Source: a virus
Strand: one strand, 5' to 3'
IMG/VR virus record: IMGVR_UViG_3300027659_000271
Coordinates: 1-20,531 of that record
DNA: 20,531 nucleotides
Every line of letters begins with the position of its first letter. The stretch's first letter is position 1. A program made the translations under genes and the position numbers. Below, one piece after another: positions 5,111 to 14,977 of the stretch. Below the pieces are notes generated by a model. That model was not told the origin of the DNA and did no database searches. It saw only the letters and a program-made list of their open reading frames with translations.

Positions 5111-7873
5111 TTATCTTTGTGAAATGATTTGTCTATTGGTGACAGAACCAGCCACCTTGATAGAATTGATCTTTGGTGATCCAACGGTTCTTGTCAAGAT
5201 CATTGTTCCCGTAAATCCCCTGATACCACCAAGGCGACACCTAATGCTTGCTGTTTCCGCCTCATTTGGAGTATCTGGAGACGGACCCAAAATTACTCCA
5301 CCAAGGAATTTTGTGGTGGTTCCAATCTCTTGAACAGATTTACGAAGACCCGTCGTCTTGTCTATAATTTGCTCGTAAGTGTCTGGATCTTCCGTAGTAA
5401 AGAAAATATTATATTCTCCATTTTCACCGGGAAGATTCTGAATGTTGATCTGCGCGTCCGTAAATCTTTTGCGCTCCATTGTGGTAAGGTCATATCCCCT
5501 AGTAATAAGAGAAGCACTAATTGACGGGGACACAACAGCCGTAGAGTTATCCACGTTTAACGTGTCATTGGAGCTTTCAGACGCTTCGATTTGGTGCAAT
5601 CCACCATTGGAGGTTACCGCATAGATGTCATTCCTTTCGCTTGCGCTGCCGATTACGAAGTCTTTAATCAAGAATCGAGAATCACCAAAGGTATCCAGCG
5701 ACTCCCACCCTTTGTTTAGGAAGTTATACACCAAGATTGCGTTGTTGCCGTAAGAATCACCAGCCCCCGGCACAGAATCAAGTGGAACAGCAAGATAATA
5801 CCTGTTCTCAAACAGGACACCTACTGCCCTGTCTGAGTAATCAGCGTTTATCCGGTCAATGTATGGCTGAATGTTCTTAGACAGTGGCTCTTCAGTCCCC
5901 CGCAGGTTGTAGTCGTTGAGGAATTCAACCCCATACACACCATCGTCAGACAAGAACAGCATGGCATTGCCGCGCATCACCACGGACTTGCGGGCTAGGC
6001 ATCCAATCTCAGAGGTGAGTTCCTTAACGGTAACGTCCAGAAGGCTTCCAAGCGTCCCTTTGACAAGATGAAGGCTATTCCTATTCAAGACAACCAATCC
6101 ATCATCATAAAACCCGTGCATCCCCACCACATAGTCAGCAGTTCCACCACTGACACGGAATTGGTTCTCGATTTGGTCGAACGTAGTAGTATCTAGAATG
6201 TCAGACACTGAAATCTCATCAGTGATCTTACGGCTAGTGTATGTTGGCGTGTCAAATGTTCCAGACTGATCGTAGTAAAACGGAACCCACAATCTACGCT
6301 GAAAGTGTACCCCCCAAGGTGCGCCGGGTTGGTGCATGAACCCACCACCGACGCTGAATCTGCCTCCAAATTCAAATGTGTTACCAGTAGTATTTACGTT
6401 GTAATTGCCTACAGGTGCGTACCACTTAATAGTTGTCGTTGTTGCTTCCGTGACTTGGTATTCTTTGCCGACCATTTCGGCAAAATCAACGGTTGTTGCT
6501 TGGCGAACAATAATGACATCACCCGCTTTAATCGTGGTATTTCCAGCTACAGTAGCAGTTACTACGCCGGTTGCAACGTCCACGTCTCTTTCTGTAATAT
6601 TAAATGTCTGAGGCTGGGTGTAAGCCCCGCCCGGAGACAAAGTAAACCCATCCGTAGTTGTTGCACTTGCAACTCCAAATGAATCAACTGTTTGACTCGT
6701 CGTAAACGTGTAAGTAAATTGATCCTGTGTCGATACGGCCAACACAGTAAAGACTCCGTTTGCGGGAACCAATGTAGCATGAGTAAGTCCAGCGATTGTG
6801 ATTGATGTTCCAACTACCAACCCATGTTCGAGGACATTCATTGTGACAGTGGTTCCTGATTGAGAGGCGGATAGCACTGGCCGTCCATTTGGATACCACT
6901 CAAGTGCTTGTTTCCCATCACGGAACAACATTACCTTGTCGAACAACTGGATCATGTCAGTGTCGCTACCAAGGGCTTCTCCAGCAGGATACGGAATGTC
7001 GGTAATTGCATACCCATCCAAGTCGATCTTCTTAGCGACGGTATCCAGTGCAATAATAACATACTCCTTGTTGCTGTCATTTGGATCGCTGAACAAGCAG
7101 GATGCACGGACGTTGGCAGCCGCATCGTTGTTGATCGGAGCCTGAGACAACGTGCCAGCACCTGAAACCGACGTGGTTGAGGACGTAACCGGAAATGTCA
7201 TGGTTGTTGCAGAGAGGTAGGTCAAAAGCCTAAGTCCATTAGGATTGGTTCCTCCAAAAGTCAATCCAGCGATTAGCCCATACCCAACGCTATCAATAGC
7301 AAACCCATGCCCAGCCGCAATCGTGATTGTAACGATGCTTGTGGCGACATTGATAGAGGACGATGTAATTGCCTTTGAGGTGGACGTAATAACCTCAGAG
7401 ATTGGTGTAGCAGCAGAAACAGTGTATGTTCCAGATCCACCAACAAGTAAATACTTTATTGTAGATCCTGTTGTTCCAGTGGTCGCAATAAATATACCGT
7501 TGGGATCGCTTCCCGTTGTGTAGCCGATACCAGCAATGTTTAGCGTTGCTCCCACAGCAAGCCCATGAGCAGAAAATGTTGTCAATGTGACAACCCCAGC
7601 AGATACGGAGGCGGCAGTAATTCTGACACTCGTTCCAGTAAGCAGGAAGGGCAGCTGCAATGGAGAACCTCCCGTAGTCAACGCCCCAGTCCTACTTACC
7701 ACGTTCTTCCGTGGCTTCCAGTATCCCTCCATGCGCCCATTCAACGACTCCCTCACCTCCCCCTCTTGGAGTTGGTTAAGCTGAAGCCTCTGGTTCACGC
7801 GATCAAAGAAACGATCAGCAACCTCGCCAATCGCAGAATCCATCGCGCTACCACTCTGGGCAAACTGGGACAT
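5111..7873 (-). CDS. Large tail hub/nozzle-like protein with inserted beta modules
   Basis: A 920-aa protein, the largest complete gene here. The N-terminal 75 residues (Asp/Arg/Gln rich, with LQEGEVRESLNGRMEGYWKP) resemble the start of podovirus tail nozzle or hub proteins. Four related beta modules can be seen: residues about 84-146, 168-230, 333-392 and 424-487. Modules 1-3 share a GHGL/AHGL/EHGL-type turn, a G-I-N/A-G strand and an NG-x-F/L motif. Between and after them lie blade-like segments (SNKEYVIIALD, 267-277; IQLFDKVMLFRDG, 308-320; RRLWVPFYYD, 526-535; DDGLVVLNRNSLHLVKG, 590-606) suggesting a beta-propeller interrupted by the modules. It starts in a TAATG overlap with the 86-aa gene. 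Nozzle/hub is inferred by layout; a receptor-binding or head-tail stabilising role is possible. Confidence 0.83.
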   Translation of the reverse strand: MSQFAQSGSAMDSAIGEVADRFFDRVNQRLQLNQLQEGEVRESLNGRMEGYWKPRKNVVSRTGALTTGGSPLQLPFLLTGTSVRITAASVSAGVVTLTTFSAHGLAVGATLNIAGIGYTTGSDPNGIFIATTGTTGSTIKYLLVGGSGTYTVSAATPISEVITSTSKAITSSSINVATSIVTITIAAGHGFAIDSVGYGLIAGLTFGGTNPNGLRLLTYLSATTMTFPVTSSTTSVSGAGTLSQAPINNDAAANVRASCLFSDPNDSNKEYVIIALDTVAKKIDLDGYAITDIPYPAGEALGSDTDMIQLFDKVMLFRDGKQALEWYPNGRPVLSASQSGTTVTMNVLEHGLVVGTSITIAGLTHATLVPANGVFTVLAVSTQDQFTYTFTTSQTVDSFGVASATTTDGFTLSPGGAYTQPQTFNITERDVDVATGVVTATVAGNTTIKAGDVIIVRQATTVDFAEMVGKEYQVTEATTTTIKWYAPVGNYNVNTTGNTFEFGGRFSVGGGFMHQPGAPWGVHFQRRLWVPFYYDQSGTFDTPTYTSRKITDEISVSDILDTTTFDQIENQFRVSGGTADYVVGMHGFYDDGLVVLNRNSLHLVKGTLGSLLDVTVKELTSEIGCLARKSVVMRGNAMLFLSDDGVYGVEFLNDYNLRGTEEPLSKNIQPYIDRINADYSDRAVGVLFENRYYLAVPLDSVPGAGDSYGNNAILVYNFLNKGWESLDTFGDSRFLIKDFVIGSASERNDIYAVTSNGGLHQIEASESSNDTLNVDNSTAVVSPSISASLITRGYDLTTMERKRFTDAQINIQNLPGENGEYNIFFTTEDPDTYEQIIDKTTGLRKSVQEIGTTTKFLGGVILGPSPDTPNEAETASIRCRLGGIRGFTGTMILTRTVGSPKINSIKVAGSVTNRQIISQR

Positions 7874-8133: not shown

Positions 8134-8202
8134 AATATATTAAAGTATCACCAACGCAACACGCACCGGCTCACACGCAAACTACCACAGATCAACAACG
8201 TG

Positions 8203-8949
8203 TCAAGCGTGTTCATTGGAAGCAGCACCAATCCTAGCTTTGGAAATCTCCATGTATTCCTCATCGCGCTCGATGCCTATAAACCGCCTCCTAGTATTCA
8301 CGCACGCAACCCCAGTAGTTCCGCTACCCATGGTATTGTCCAGAACTGTTTCCCCTTCGTTGGTGTAGGTGCGTATAAGATATTCCATCAGGGCTACGGG
8401 TTTTTGGGTGGGGTGAACATATTTACCGTCACTCTGTTTGCTATAAACTAATATGCTCTGTGGATTTTTATCGTTATAGATTCGCGTAATTCCATCATTA
8501 TATTTTAATGGTGAACTATCTGAAGATGATACAACTTTACCTTTAACTGGCTTATCTCGCTTTTCTTTTTGTGGATTCCAATTTGGAGTTCCATCGCAAA
8601 AAACACTTACTAATTCATGTCTTTTCATTGGCACATACTTTGCAATCTGAAAACCAGAAGGACGAACTTTGTCCCAAACCCAGTCATATTTAAATTGCTT
8701 TAAGTTACTAACTCTTAATAAAGAACTAAAAGGTTCGCTTCCAAATAGCACAATAGCCCCGTTCTTTTTAATTATTCTTTTATACTGATCCCACAGAGGC
8801 TCGAATGGTATCACCGTATCCCACTTGCAGGCCGTCGTGCCGTAGGGCAAATCGCATAGCACCATATCTACGCTTCTATCTGGAATCTCTTTCATGCGAT
8901 CCAACGTGTCACCAAGCATCAACCACGGATCACTTGAAGTCTCAGTCAT
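8203..8949 (-). CDS. Orphan DNA methyltransferase (beta-class N6-adenine/N4-cytosine)
   Basis: A 248-aa enzyme that would transfer a methyl group from S-adenosylmethionine to an exocyclic amino group in DNA. Catalytic motif IV DLPYG is at residues 33-37; HPTQKP at 179-184 precedes the SAM-binding motif I VLDNTMGSGTTG (202-213). Motif IV before motif I is the beta-class order. I choose the ATG at 8949 because AGGAGG lies 4 nt upstream (8954-8959); an in-frame GTG at 8973 would extend it by 8 residues. No endonuclease gene is adjacent, so it is probably an orphan enzyme for self-protection against restriction or for gene control. The middle of the gene (8440-8800), covering the likely target-recognition part, is visibly AT-richer than both ends, suggesting exchange of that segment. 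Target sequence is unknown. Confidence 0.93.
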   Translation of the reverse strand: MTETSSDPWLMLGDTLDRMKEIPDRSVDMVLCDLPYGTTACKWDTVIPFEPLWDQYKRIIKKNGAIVLFGSEPFSSLLRVSNLKQFKYDWVWDKVRPSGFQIAKYVPMKRHELVSVFCDGTPNWNPQKEKRDKPVKGKVVSSSDSSPLKYNDGITRIYNDKNPQSILVYSKQSDGKYVHPTQKPVALMEYLIRTYTNEGETVLDNTMGSGTTGVACVNTRRRFIGIERDEEYMEISKARIGAASNEHA

Positions 8950-10124: not shown

Positions 10125-10307
10125 ATGAAAACAAGCCAAGACAAGCCAAGACAAGCCAAGCGTTTCGAGACACCTCGCCGGATTGAGCAGACAGCGGATC
10201 AATTTGGATGCGTCGGGTTCATTTCCTACGGGTTCATCCAATACGCTAGTGGGGACATTGTTCATGTTCGCAATCCAGACTTCAACTGGTCCGCTTTTTC
10301 CCGCTAA
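10125..10307 (+). CDS. Small early protein with repeat-encoded N-terminus (60 aa)
   Basis: A 60-aa protein starting at the ATG at 10125 (MKTSQDKPRQAKRFETPRRI). The first 20 residues are strongly basic and encoded in part by three exact copies of ACAAGCCAAG (10131-10160); the remainder (CVGFISYGFIQYASGDIVHV) looks like a small beta domain. I choose this start because ATGAAAAC is also the start of three neighbouring genes and an upstream in-frame extension has no coding character. It is the first gene after the divergent control region. Function unknown. The basic N-terminus could bind nucleic acid. Because the repeat unit is 10 bp, gain or loss of a unit would shift the frame. Confidence 0.65.
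   Translation: MKTSQDKPRQAKRFETPRRIEQTADQFGCVGFISYGFIQYASGDIVHVRNPDFNWSAFSR
10131..10160 (+). repeat. Tandem repeat (ACAAGCCAAG)x3
   Basis: Three exact, head-to-tail 10-bp copies immediately after the start codon of the first early gene. The unit length is not a multiple of three, so a change in copy number would switch the reading frame. Confidence 0.9.
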
Positions 10308-10310
10308 ACA

Positions 10311-10358
10311 ATCCAAGCGGTTCCACCCCGCTTCACACACACACACACACACACCACG
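10311..10358 (+). promoter_or_regulatory. Hairpin plus (CA)n leader, copy 1
   Basis: ATCC, then AAGCGG (10315-10320), a 7-nt loop TTCCACC, CCGCTT (10328-10333), then (CA)10C to 10354 and CACG directly before the ATG at 10359. There is no Shine-Dalgarno. The same layout recurs before the next gene. Likely an mRNA leader element; the hairpin could end upstream translation or transcription or protect the 5' side, while the unstructured CA tract leaves the start site open. Confidence 0.6.
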
Positions 10359-10535
10359 ATGAGAACAAAAACAACTCTTCCCGCCATTCGGGAAATTGAA
10401 ATCAAAACTGCCGATCTCTGGCTTTCCACCGGAGCAATCACCGTGACCGACACGGGAGAAGAAAACACTTATTACATGAACGAGTTTGGTCACCTTTTTT
10501 TCTGTAAAAACCGCGAGGGAATCTCGTCATTCTGA
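10359..10535 (+). CDS. Small early protein (58 aa)
   Basis: A 58-aa protein from ATG 10359 to TGA 10535: MRTKTTLPAIREIEIK, then TADLWLSTGAITVTDTGEE and NTYYMNEFGHLFFCKNREG. The alternating pattern suggests a small beta-rich domain. It is supported as a gene by its leader, which is a near copy of the leader of the next gene (hairpin, CA tract, CACGATGA), and by the similar start codon context. The end of the gene contains CGAG-GGAAT-CTCG, a short inverted repeat. I do not recognise the family, and nothing in it points to a specific function. Confidence 0.7.
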   Translation: MRTKTTLPAIREIEIKTADLWLSTGAITVTDTGEENTYYMNEFGHLFFCKNREGISSF

Positions 10536-10540
10536 AACAA

Positions 10541-10583
10541 CCCAAGCGGGTTCAACCCCCGCTTCACACACACACATACCACG
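10541..10583 (+). promoter_or_regulatory. Hairpin plus (CA)n leader, copy 2
   Basis: CCC, then AAGCGGG (10544-10550), 7-nt loop TTCAACC, CCCGCTT (10558-10564), a CA tract interrupted by one T, and CCACG before the ATG at 10584. Relative to copy 1 the stem gains one G-C pair with both sides changed, so pairing is kept. The arm and loop resemble a tRNA T-arm (5-bp GCGGG/CCCGC, loop TTCAACC), but no tRNA is present. Confidence 0.6.
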
Positions 10584-10766
10584 ATGAAAACTTACCAAGA
10601 ACGATTTGCCGCAGCCTATGACTATTGGATTGCTCAAGATGCACCGCCATCCGCCGCGCGTGACCTCGCGCACGATCAGCTTGATTTTGAGGACCAGCAA
10701 AACGAGCCAGAAACCCTAGGCTCGAACGATAGCCTGCCGCTTCACTCCTACTTAACCCAGCCATGA
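10584..10766 (+). CDS. Small acidic early protein (60 aa)
   Basis: A 60-aa protein starting MKTYQERFAAAYDYWIAQDA. The first half is an amphipathic helix rich in Ala, Tyr and Trp; the second half is acidic and polar (DQLDFEDQQNEPETLG). Start is set by the repeated leader and the ATGAAAAC context. The TGA overlaps the ATG of the membrane protein that follows (ATGA, 10763-10766), so the two are probably translated together. I do not recognise a family. Host-takeover proteins of phages are often this size, but that is only a general expectation for this location. Confidence 0.72.
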   Translation: MKTYQERFAAAYDYWIAQDAPPSAARDLAHDQLDFEDQQNEPETLGSNDSLPLHSYLTQP

Positions 10767-11120: not shown

Positions 11121-11203
11121 GTGTCGGCAATTAGTCGTCATTCTGTTCACATATCCAAGCGCGGCCCGCGATGCAGGGCGATCAAATCAAAACAAATCAA
11201 ACT

Positions 11204-11569
11204 ATGAAAACGACACTCAGCACATCAGACATTGCCCGCGCCCTTCACAGAGACGACAACGCCAATTGGTCATGGAACGGGGCGAAAGCCTTGGCCGAAT
11301 ACTTGGAACAGCTTGAGGAGGAAACTGGCGAGGAAATGGAATTTGACGCCGTCGCCATTCGCTGCGACTTCTCAGAATCCACGAGCCTGCCGGATTGGCT
11401 TATGGAGCATCATGGAGCAGAAACGCTGGCATTCGCCTTGCAACGGTCTGGAATCGACATGGAAGGAGACGAGGACGAGGACGAAACGGACGATTTGATC
11501 CGCTCATACATCCAAGACAACGGGACGCTCATTGAGTTTGACGGTGGCGTCATCGTTTCGAGCTTCTAA
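11204..11569 (+). CDS. Conserved-type acidic phage hypothetical (121 aa)
   Basis: A 121-aa protein (MKTTLSTSDIARALHRDDNA...). I choose the ATG at 11204 because it has the A-rich leader (AAACAAATCAAACT) and the ATGAAAAC context; an in-frame ATG at 11171 would add 11 residues. The segment WSWNGAKALAEYLEQLEEET, then GEEMEFDAVAIRCDFSE, matches a phage and bacterial hypothetical protein type I have seen widely (an A-L-x-E-Y-L-E-x-L-E-E-x-T helix followed by V-A-I-R-C-D-F/W-S-E). A very acidic stretch MEGDEDEDETDD lies near residues 86-97 and a strand-rich end closes it. Function of this type is not known to me. An anti-host or DNA-mimic role could be imagined from the acidity, but there is no direct support. 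Confidence 0.8.
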   Translation: MKTTLSTSDIARALHRDDNANWSWNGAKALAEYLEQLEEETGEEMEFDAVAIRCDFSESTSLPDWLMEHHGAETLAFALQRSGIDMEGDEDEDETDDLIRSYIQDNGTLIEFDGGVIVSSF

Positions 11570-11619
11570 ATTCAACCCCGGCGAGGTCCAATCCCTTGCA
11601 AACTTCAACAATCAAAAAA

Positions 11620-11802
11620 ATGACAATCCAAGGAGAATTCAAAAACGGCATGGCAAGCGGCAAATTCCCGCATGAAGAAAACACGCTGAAAGCAATCCGG
11701 GCGGTGACGCGAAAAGACACAGAGCCACTGGTCCGGGCTTACTGGTCTGGCTATCTCTGCCAATTGACGTCTCGCCAGATTGACGACGCTTGCTCGCCAT
11801 AA
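11620..11802 (+). CDS. Small hypothetical protein (60 aa)
   Basis: A 60-aa protein from the ATG at 11620, directly after a run of seven A: MTIQGEFKNGMASGKFPHEE, then NTLKAIRAVTRKDTEPLVRA and YWSGYLCQLTSRQIDDACSP. An upstream in-frame TTG at 11596 would add 8 residues but lacks the A-rich context. The centre is a basic helix and the C-terminal part is mixed with two Cys. After the stop comes a 72-nt gap with two small inverted repeats (ACTCC/GGAGT near 11811-11826 and GCGG/CCGC near 11831-11843) before the next gene. No family recognised. Confidence 0.65.
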   Translation: MTIQGEFKNGMASGKFPHEENTLKAIRAVTRKDTEPLVRAYWSGYLCQLTSRQIDDACSP

Positions 11803-12128: not shown

Positions 12129-12470
12129 ATGACACACACACACACGCACGGACCATGGGAGCTTGAACATTGCCGAAATGAGGACGGCTCGAAATTTATC
12201 ACTATAAACGGCCAAGGACCGCATGGCGCATGGCTTGCGGACATCCAAGCCGGGGACGTCAACGGGAAGCCCACAGACGTCACGGAAAAGCATCTTGCAA
12301 ACGCCCGCCTGATTGCCGCCGCGCCGGAGTTGCTGGAGGCTTTGGAAGATGCGGAGTTCTTGCTTAGAAAGGCGGGACTAATGGCGGGACCGATGCGAGA
12401 TAGTTTCAACCGTTCAGCAAGTGACGCCCGCGCAGCAATCGCAAAGGCAACGGGGAAGGGGGCCGCATGA
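12129..12470 (+). CDS. NARLIAAAPELLEAL-type phage hypothetical (113 aa)
   Basis: A 113-aa protein with the motif HLANARLIAAAPELLEALED (residues 55-74), a very common signature of phage and prophage hypothetical proteins, usually after an N-terminal part with WELE and an IADI/LADI-like strand, both seen here (GPWELEHC at 8-15, GAWLADIQ at 33-40). The first codons after ATG are a CA repeat, giving MTHTHTHG, unusual and paralleled at 14819. The C-terminal half is a helix rich in Ala and Arg. Start at 12129 follows an A-rich leader (AAACGAAACA). Biological role of this family is unknown to me. The stop overlaps the next gene (ATGA). Confidence 0.83.
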   Translation: MTHTHTHGPWELEHCRNEDGSKFITINGQGPHGAWLADIQAGDVNGKPTDVTEKHLANARLIAAAPELLEALEDAEFLLRKAGLMAGPMRDSFNRSASDARAAIAKATGKGAA

Positions 12471-14519: not shown

Positions 14520-14822
14520 ATGAAACGATCAGAAACAACAAAAGAAAAGTGGGAAGACGCAGTTTTTGCGGCTGAATCAAAAGAAATCTCGGAATGGGTT
14601 GATTCCTTGCGAGAGATGGATTGCAACGATATCAGGATTACGTCACGCGATAACTATGGTTTATGCACAACAATCATAAGCGATTCCTCATGCGGAGATG
14701 CTTATGTTATAACGAGAAATCTTGACGTTGATGAATTGTCCGAGTCCGTTAGCTTTTTTCTTTTTTCAGACGAAGTGACTAAAGCCATTTCAGATATTTA
14801 CATTTCAAGCAAAACAAAATGA
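14520..14822 (+). CDS. Hypothetical protein (100 aa)
   Basis: A 100-aa protein (MKRSETTKEKWEDAVFAAES...) with a helical, charged N-terminus and a strand-rich centre (CNDIRITSRDNYGLCTTIIS), then a helix LDVDELSESVSFFLFSDEVT. It is AT-richer in codon use than the neighbouring recombination genes, visible as many AAA, GAT and TTT codons. The leader ACGAAAAAAACAAA runs directly into the ATG. The final codons (SSKTK, from AGCAAAACAAAATGA) also serve as the A-rich leader of the next gene, which overlaps by ATGA. No family recognised. Confidence 0.7.
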   Translation: MKRSETTKEKWEDAVFAAESKEISEWVDSLREMDCNDIRITSRDNYGLCTTIISDSSCGDAYVITRNLDVDELSESVSFFLFSDEVTKAISDIYISSKTK

Positions 14823-14977
14823 GAGTCACACACACACCATATAAGACGAAAACCCGCGCAATCGGAAGCGACCTTGAGATGACGCTGGCACTTGTCGGCG
14901 CACTCAAGAACCCAAACAAAAGCGCAATCAGCAAACTAGGCAAGATCGCCACAACCCTCACAAAGCTATTCAAATGA
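14819..14977 (+). CDS. Small basic protein with CA-repeat start (52 aa)
   Basis: A 52-aa protein (MRVTHTPYKTKTRAIGSDLE, then MTLALVGALKNPNKSAISKL) ending in a Lys-rich amphipathic helix GKIATTLTKLFK. It starts in an ATGA overlap with the previous gene and ends in an ATGA overlap with the next, so both junctions support it although it is short. The codons after the start include (CA)5, as in the gene at 12129. Pattern of small, basic and helical could fit a nucleic-acid or membrane-surface peptide. Function unknown. Confidence 0.62.
   Translation: MRVTHTPYKTKTRAIGSDLEMTLALVGALKNPNKSAISKLGKIATTLTKLFK

Follow-up and report, generated by a model that had tools for sequence, protein, structure and literature searches.

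T-arm-like hairpins between stop and start codons: a recurrent RNA element of uncultured phages

Many lineages of uncultured phages carry a small hairpin with the loop of a tRNA T-arm between the stop codon of one gene and the ATG of the next, and as an object this hairpin very likely represents a phage RNA motif that is widespread, uncatalogued and a mimic of the tRNA T-arm. It consists of a 5-9 bp stem closed by a G-C pair and a 7-nt loop U(U/C)CNA(U/C/A)C. The window, by which we mean the whole analysed stretch of 20,531 nucleotides, is a viral contig of 20.5 kb in which the structural genes run leftward and occupy the part up to ~9 kb, while the early genes, among them RecT, exonuclease VIII and a RuvC-like gene, run rightward from ~10 kb. 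As stated in the original prediction, two adjacent small genes are preceded there by leaders made of a hairpin and a CA tract (10315-10354 and 10544-10576), neither of which has a Shine-Dalgarno (SD) sequence, and the pairing is preserved by the extra pair in the second stem, with one base inserted on each side. The third relative that had been proposed at 11153-11161 is a mere 9-nt match at which the covariance model finds nothing; the true third element lies at 11581-11599 and had been overlooked (Table 1). The observation is real, and it was understated. The conserved core of the element is, judged by its sequence, a tRNA T-loop hairpin, which had gone unnoticed.

Table 1. Hairpins, leaders and adjoining reading frames in the window (CM, covariance model).
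Feature	Position	Strand	Remarks
60-aa ORF	10125..10307	+	stop TAA 10305-10307, 7 nt 5' of copy 1
T-loop hairpin copy 1	10315..10333	+	AAGCGG[TTCCACC]CCGCTT, 6 bp; sequence, fold, CM R1
Leader of copy 1	10334..10358	+	SD-less, A/C-rich, to ATG 10359
58-aa ORF	10359..10535	+	3' of copy 1 (MRTKTTLPAIREIEIK...)
T-loop hairpin copy 2	10544..10564	+	AAGCGGG[TTCAACC]CCCGCTT, 7 bp; CM 32.0 bits
Leader of copy 2	10565..10583	+	SD-less, A/C-rich, to ATG 10584
60-aa ORF	10584..10766	+	3' of copy 2 (MKTYQERFAAAYDYW...)
T-loop hairpin copy 3	11581..11599	+	GCGAGG[TCCAATC]CCTTGC, one G-U pair; CM 27.2 bits
Leader of copy 3	11600..11619	+	A-rich, without CA tract, to ATG 11620
ORF	11620..11802	+	3' of copy 3 (MTIQGEFKNGMASGKF...)

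The full covariance model finds only copies 1-3 above noise in the window, with E-values that are optimistic as the model contains all three window sequences; likewise, model R1, which scores copy 1 with 24.1 bits (10312-10336), was built including the copy 1 sequence. Folding is predicted with -7.2 kcal/mol (z -2.8) for copy 1, -10.5 kcal/mol (z -3.9) for copy 2 and -7.9 kcal/mol for copy 3, and in copies 1 and 2 the CA tract is predicted to be unpaired. This tract is (CA)10C in the first leader (10334-10354) and (CA)6 in the second (10565-10576), and in both ACCACG stands between tract and ATG. The stem starts 7 nt past the upstream stop in copy 1 and 8 nt past it in copy 2, whose slot is opened by the TGA of the 58-aa ORF (10533-10535); copy 3 lies 11 nt past a TAA (11567-11569) and 20 nt before its ATG. 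In L066, a hairpin of this kind likewise precedes a relative of the 60-aa ORF after copy 2, and the family of the ORF after copy 3 also follows T-loop hairpins in L136, L143 and L187. Elsewhere in the window, CA repeats stand directly after the ATG of two genes (12129-12150 and 14819-14840; ATGACACACACACACACGCAC and ATGAGAGTCACACACACACC), so that the same phage carries CA repeats both upstream and downstream of ATGs. The small gene preceding copy 1 contains an exact threefold tandem 10-mer, ACAAGCCAAG (10131-10160), of which CAAGCCAAG is similar to the 5' edge of the hairpin.

A lack of further copies before the genes of related phages would have spoken against the prediction, but such copies were found. 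A first pattern scan of IMG/VR gave ~97 matches, mostly chance, which were kept only with a T-loop and a stop and ATG context; the loops of these relatives read TTCRATC and are closed by G-C, as in the T-loop of tRNA. Later scans with a uniform filter that included tRNA removal by ARAGORN resulted in 154 in-context matches and, after doubtful ones were discarded, in 144 elements from 90 viral loci. These scans used the loop or chosen stems, whereas the controls described below were free of loop bias, with relatives gathered by their RecT protein, a criterion blind to the hairpin. The 144 elements comprise ~47 stem sequences, such as AAGCGG(G), GGCGAGG, GCAAGG, AAGTAGG, GCCGGG, GCGCCGGG and GGGGCGAGG. 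A scan of genome contigs for AAGCGG...CCCGCTTCACAC gave 28 matches, none of them a T-loop in context. In a separate phage group, L248 (4870-4925, minus strand), L247, L249, L254 and L265, GCAAGG[TTCCACC]CCTTGC occurs soon past a stop codon with no close ATG; in L248, a repeated GGCAGCC element and an ATG are found ~90 nt beyond the hairpin. One relative phage, L173, has T-loop hairpins at 6452-7757 and, near them, a sub-threshold match to the twister-P1 ribozyme (8201-8258, plus strand; 45.9 bits with a gathering threshold of 67.2, E 6e-07). Numerous long palindromes with AAGCGGGC(TTC/GAA)GCCCGCTT as their core and GGTGTG/CACACC as borders are scattered over a metagenome-assembled Anaerolineae genome (L105, L106, L111, L121, L128); they are unrelated to the phage element.

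As the loop is that of a T-arm, the hairpins might be thought to be relics of tRNA genes or of tRNA-gene integration sites, and blastn of three consensus leaders against named phages indeed returned tRNA genes or chance matches, with one exception in a crAss-like phage; the exact matches there are tRNA genes. However, ARAGORN finds no tRNA at the elements (52 tRNA-borne matches had been set apart by it and excluded), an acceptor stem is absent, and several copies with different stems occupy a fixed stop-to-ATG slot within one phage, which makes such an origin hardly credible. The excepted match (L373:711-731, NC_055892.1, phage cr109_1) is an unannotated hairpin AAGCGGG[TTCCAAC]CTCGCTT of 7 bp with one G-U pair, with a TAA just upstream and an ATG 17 nt downstream, after which only a very short ORF follows. 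Phage cr113_1 gave a blastn match of equal quality; both are gut phages of another kind.

Stem pairing is well conserved while its sequence changes. Among 79 distinct elements, covariation was 0.730 for the true partners and at most 0.152 for slid partners, double-changed cells numbered 175 compared with 53 in shuffles, and changes on both sides were found at 6 of the 7 stem pairs; the counted elements had to pair, so that the inner pairs are conditioned. These substitution patterns suggest that selection acts on the element at the RNA level. The genes around it vary, with 36 upstream and 39 downstream gene families flanking 64 copies, which together with the compensatory changes bears out the idea of a reusable leader module. 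Such strong reassortment of flanking genes could also be expected of a recombination linker, that is, of a boundary sequence for the exchange of small gene cassettes. A linker would need conserved DNA, yet changes in the stems are matched on the opposite side so that pairing persists, and even a single phage has different stems (AAGCGG, GGCAAGG and GGCGAGG in L138), and we regard this explanation as very unlikely.

The loop was assessed in the RecT-selected relatives, whose 1031 gaps contain 30 T-loop hairpins compared with 0.15 in shuffled sequences. All 20 hairpins with the loop TTCNAYC lie between a stop and an ATG on the coding strand, as do 6 of the 7 with TCCNAYC, and this U55 to C change is the sole tolerated departure: single departures at U54, C56, A58 or C60 left 0-1 hairpins in context. 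Permuted loops gave a mean of 0.2 in context and a maximum of 9, the latter probably stemming from permutations that overlap the true pattern. In 120 distinct elements, G53-C61, U54, C56, A58 and C60 are conserved to 100%, which is partly due to selection of the elements, and position 55 is U in 106 and C in 14. A comparison with Rfam 15 left the element unmatched, both in the window at the gathering threshold and in nine relative loci at E up to 1.

For TrmA, TrmFO and TruB/PUS4, a 7-nt T-loop on a stem of 5 bp is the smallest hairpin that serves as a substrate (PMC7912444). The corresponding sequence rule, GUUCNANYC with 5 or more stem pairs, is obeyed by 106 of the 120 elements as far as sequence can tell, and in the window the copies fit it except for U55 in copy 3. 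The phage element shares with the tRNA T-arm the 7-nt loop, U54, C56, A58, Y60 and the closing G53-C61 pair, but it differs in lying outside tRNA, in the stop-to-start gaps of mRNA, in its stem of often more than 5 bp, in allowing C55, and in position 57, which can be any base (a purine in 79 of 120) and is a purine in tRNA. T-arm-like sites within mRNA are also known from eukaryotes (GUUCNANNC / GUUCNANYCY, for m1A and PUS4), where GUUCNANYCY is the mRNA motif of PUS4 (PMC10606696). These share the loop motif but are scattered in transcripts, whereas the phage element is repeated, phage-specific and bound to a fixed intercistronic slot. As 14 of the 120 elements carry C55, a pseudouridylation at position 55 cannot be the essential function.

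The position of the hairpin is narrowly defined. The distance from stop to stem is 6-13 nt with a median of 10, that from stem to ATG is 12-31 nt (5-95%), and neither depends on stem length; spacing measured to the loop rather than to the stem is likewise uncorrelated with it. According to ribosome footprints, a hairpin 7-13 nt past a stop is just beyond a terminating ribosome, and one that ends 12-31 nt before an AUG touches the rear edge of an initiating ribosome or lies behind it. Taken together, the element seems to fit a ribosome-free slot between two translated genes, an argument built on general footprint knowledge and not on data from this host. This exact fit, and stems that are stable while their sequence varies freely, would also suit a passive mRNA hairpin that acts as barrier or insulator against exonucleases or sliding post-termination ribosomes, with the T-loop only as a compact and stable fold. 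For such a role, GNRA or UUCG tetraloops should do as well. The hairpins in the slot comprise 25 T-loops, compared with 0.0 in shuffles, and 67 others with scattered loops, among which neither a tetraloop family nor another rival loop family was found. Moreover, C56 and C60 are invariant even though the T-loop fold itself does not require them, and we think that a passive function is unlikely. Rather, two findings favour a loop that is read: its conserved bases are those on which tRNA-reading factors rely, and other stable loops are lacking.

Other readers than a T-arm-binding factor have to be considered. The elements number up to six per record, mostly clustered within about 1-3 kb, and such grouping in one region and the untranslated position, as in lambda nutR, would agree with a nut- or put-type signal for processive antitermination, or another transcription signal, with RNA polymerase or a phage antiterminator binding to the hairpin. 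Lambda nut (boxA/boxB) is a short hairpin in the untranslated RNA of an early phage operon, and to this extent it resembles the phage element, which differs in its 7-nt T-loop, in its several copies per operon and in its strong link to start and stop codons. One copy suffices in lambda and 2-6 are present here, the loop is not the 5-nt GNRA-like pentaloop of boxB, the stems are variable, and a promoter scan revealed no known early promoter pattern adjoining the element; antitermination is therefore rather improbable. An intrinsic terminator was rejected, as the stem is followed by CACACA or an A/C-rich leader and not by a U tract, and the plus-strand scan was negative. Alternatively, RNase P or another tRNA-processing nuclease could cut the polycistronic mRNA at the T-arm, given that some mRNAs are cleaved by RNase P, an enzyme that binds the T-stem-loop (PMC11143913). 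This enzyme uses a 12-bp T-loop measure for its cut (PMC11143913), which makes it an unlikely reader of stems that have 5-9 bp in 142 of 144 elements, and a 3' RCCA is absent where the stems of the copies end; we consider processing in general quite improbable.

The leader after the stem has a composition of A 0.47, C 0.35 and G 0.04, the spacer is likewise A/C-rich and nearly free of G, and an SD-like sequence was found in none of the 30 T-loop gaps of the RecT set. The original prediction treated hairpin and CA tract as one element. Of these, the hairpin is conserved; the CA tract is not defining, as it ranges from 0 to 21 nt even in the window's nearest relatives, and other lineages have CACTATCACAAACC or ACAACCAACCAGAACC after the stem instead. 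A/C-rich leaders are usual in these phages, and the CA tract is a lineage-specific form of them. Upstream CA tracts as such have been described before: in Salmonella, upstream CA/ACA tracts are translation enhancers, proposed to serve as an anchor for the 30S subunit or protein S1 (PMC3879156). These enteric enhancers (yifK, dppA, and the downstream CA repeats) share the unpaired CA-rich leader before the start codon, but they come with an SD and without a T-loop hairpin, whereas the phage leaders are SD-less and their CA tract is variable and lineage-specific. In Flavobacterium, A-rich upstream bases aid initiation (PMC6847099). By analogy, the A/C or CA leader probably helps SD-independent initiation.

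Based on these data we propose that the hairpin acts in cis in phage mRNA as a mimic of the T-arm, kept folded between ribosomes and read by a T-arm-binding factor, a reading to which we give an even chance as a whole. A stand-alone mimic would sit in the short untranslated gap of phage early mRNAs, followed by an unstructured, SD-less A/C-rich leader. Its start would lie just outside the ribosome that terminates on the upstream stop codon and its end just outside the one that initiates at the downstream AUG, so that it could remain folded during translation of both genes. A T-arm-binding factor might then, with less certainty, bind the hairpin, keep its fold and tune the downstream gene, while the A/C tract, here CA, would let SD-independent ribosomes load. 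The simplest candidate for the reader is a host tRNA T-loop protein of the TruB or TrmA/TrmFO type, and an alternative would be a phage protein with the same taste. As no protein family is common to all element-bearing lineages in the partial loci compared, a host reader appears likelier than a phage one. One gene family did mark the carriers; it was rejected, as it merely tracks the phage clade. In the stretch examined, a copy is missing from about half of the RecT relatives, and the element therefore seems dispensable for that kind of phage.

A sample of 442 bacterial genomes (145 Verrucomicrobiota, 148 Bacteroidota and 149 Planctomycetota) contained one convincing in-context copy, in the Verrucomicrobiota genome G131 (L367:10071-10115, GCGGGAGG[TCCGAAC]CCTCCCGC), 7 nt past a TAA and 18 nt before an ATG. 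It is located downstream of a DUF3560 gene and precedes a methyltransferase-like gene, and an equal-scoring match occurs in another genome from the genus of G131. The 920-aa tail protein of the window likewise has its best homologue among 278 Verrucomicrobiota genomes in G131 (E 5.5e-35). T-loop elements were found neither near this homologue nor in Verrucomicrobiota prophage-like regions around RecT matches. The element copy and the tail-protein homologue together point, weakly, to Verrucomicrobiota as a plausible host, and some members of this phylum are listed among the SD-scarce bacteria (PMC10783764).

The finding adds a very short, strongly conserved RNA motif of many uncultured phage lineages that apparently has no catalogue entry, and it offers a clean system for studying the start and insulation of SD-less genes in dense phage operons. 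As the loop obeys the rules of T-arm recognition, it leads to the concrete prediction that phage mRNA is a target for a T-arm-binding factor of the host, and a hairpin that is conserved, recurrent and absent from Rfam suggests that a host tRNA-binding factor may read phage messages. More generally, and tentatively, many phages of SD-independent bacteria could punctuate their early polycistronic mRNAs with T-arm mimics, by which a tRNA-elbow or T-loop protein of the host would be recruited. If this is true, a tRNA-maturation factor would be a regulator of phage genes, and the hairpins would represent a class of phage-host RNA mimicry that has not been described before.
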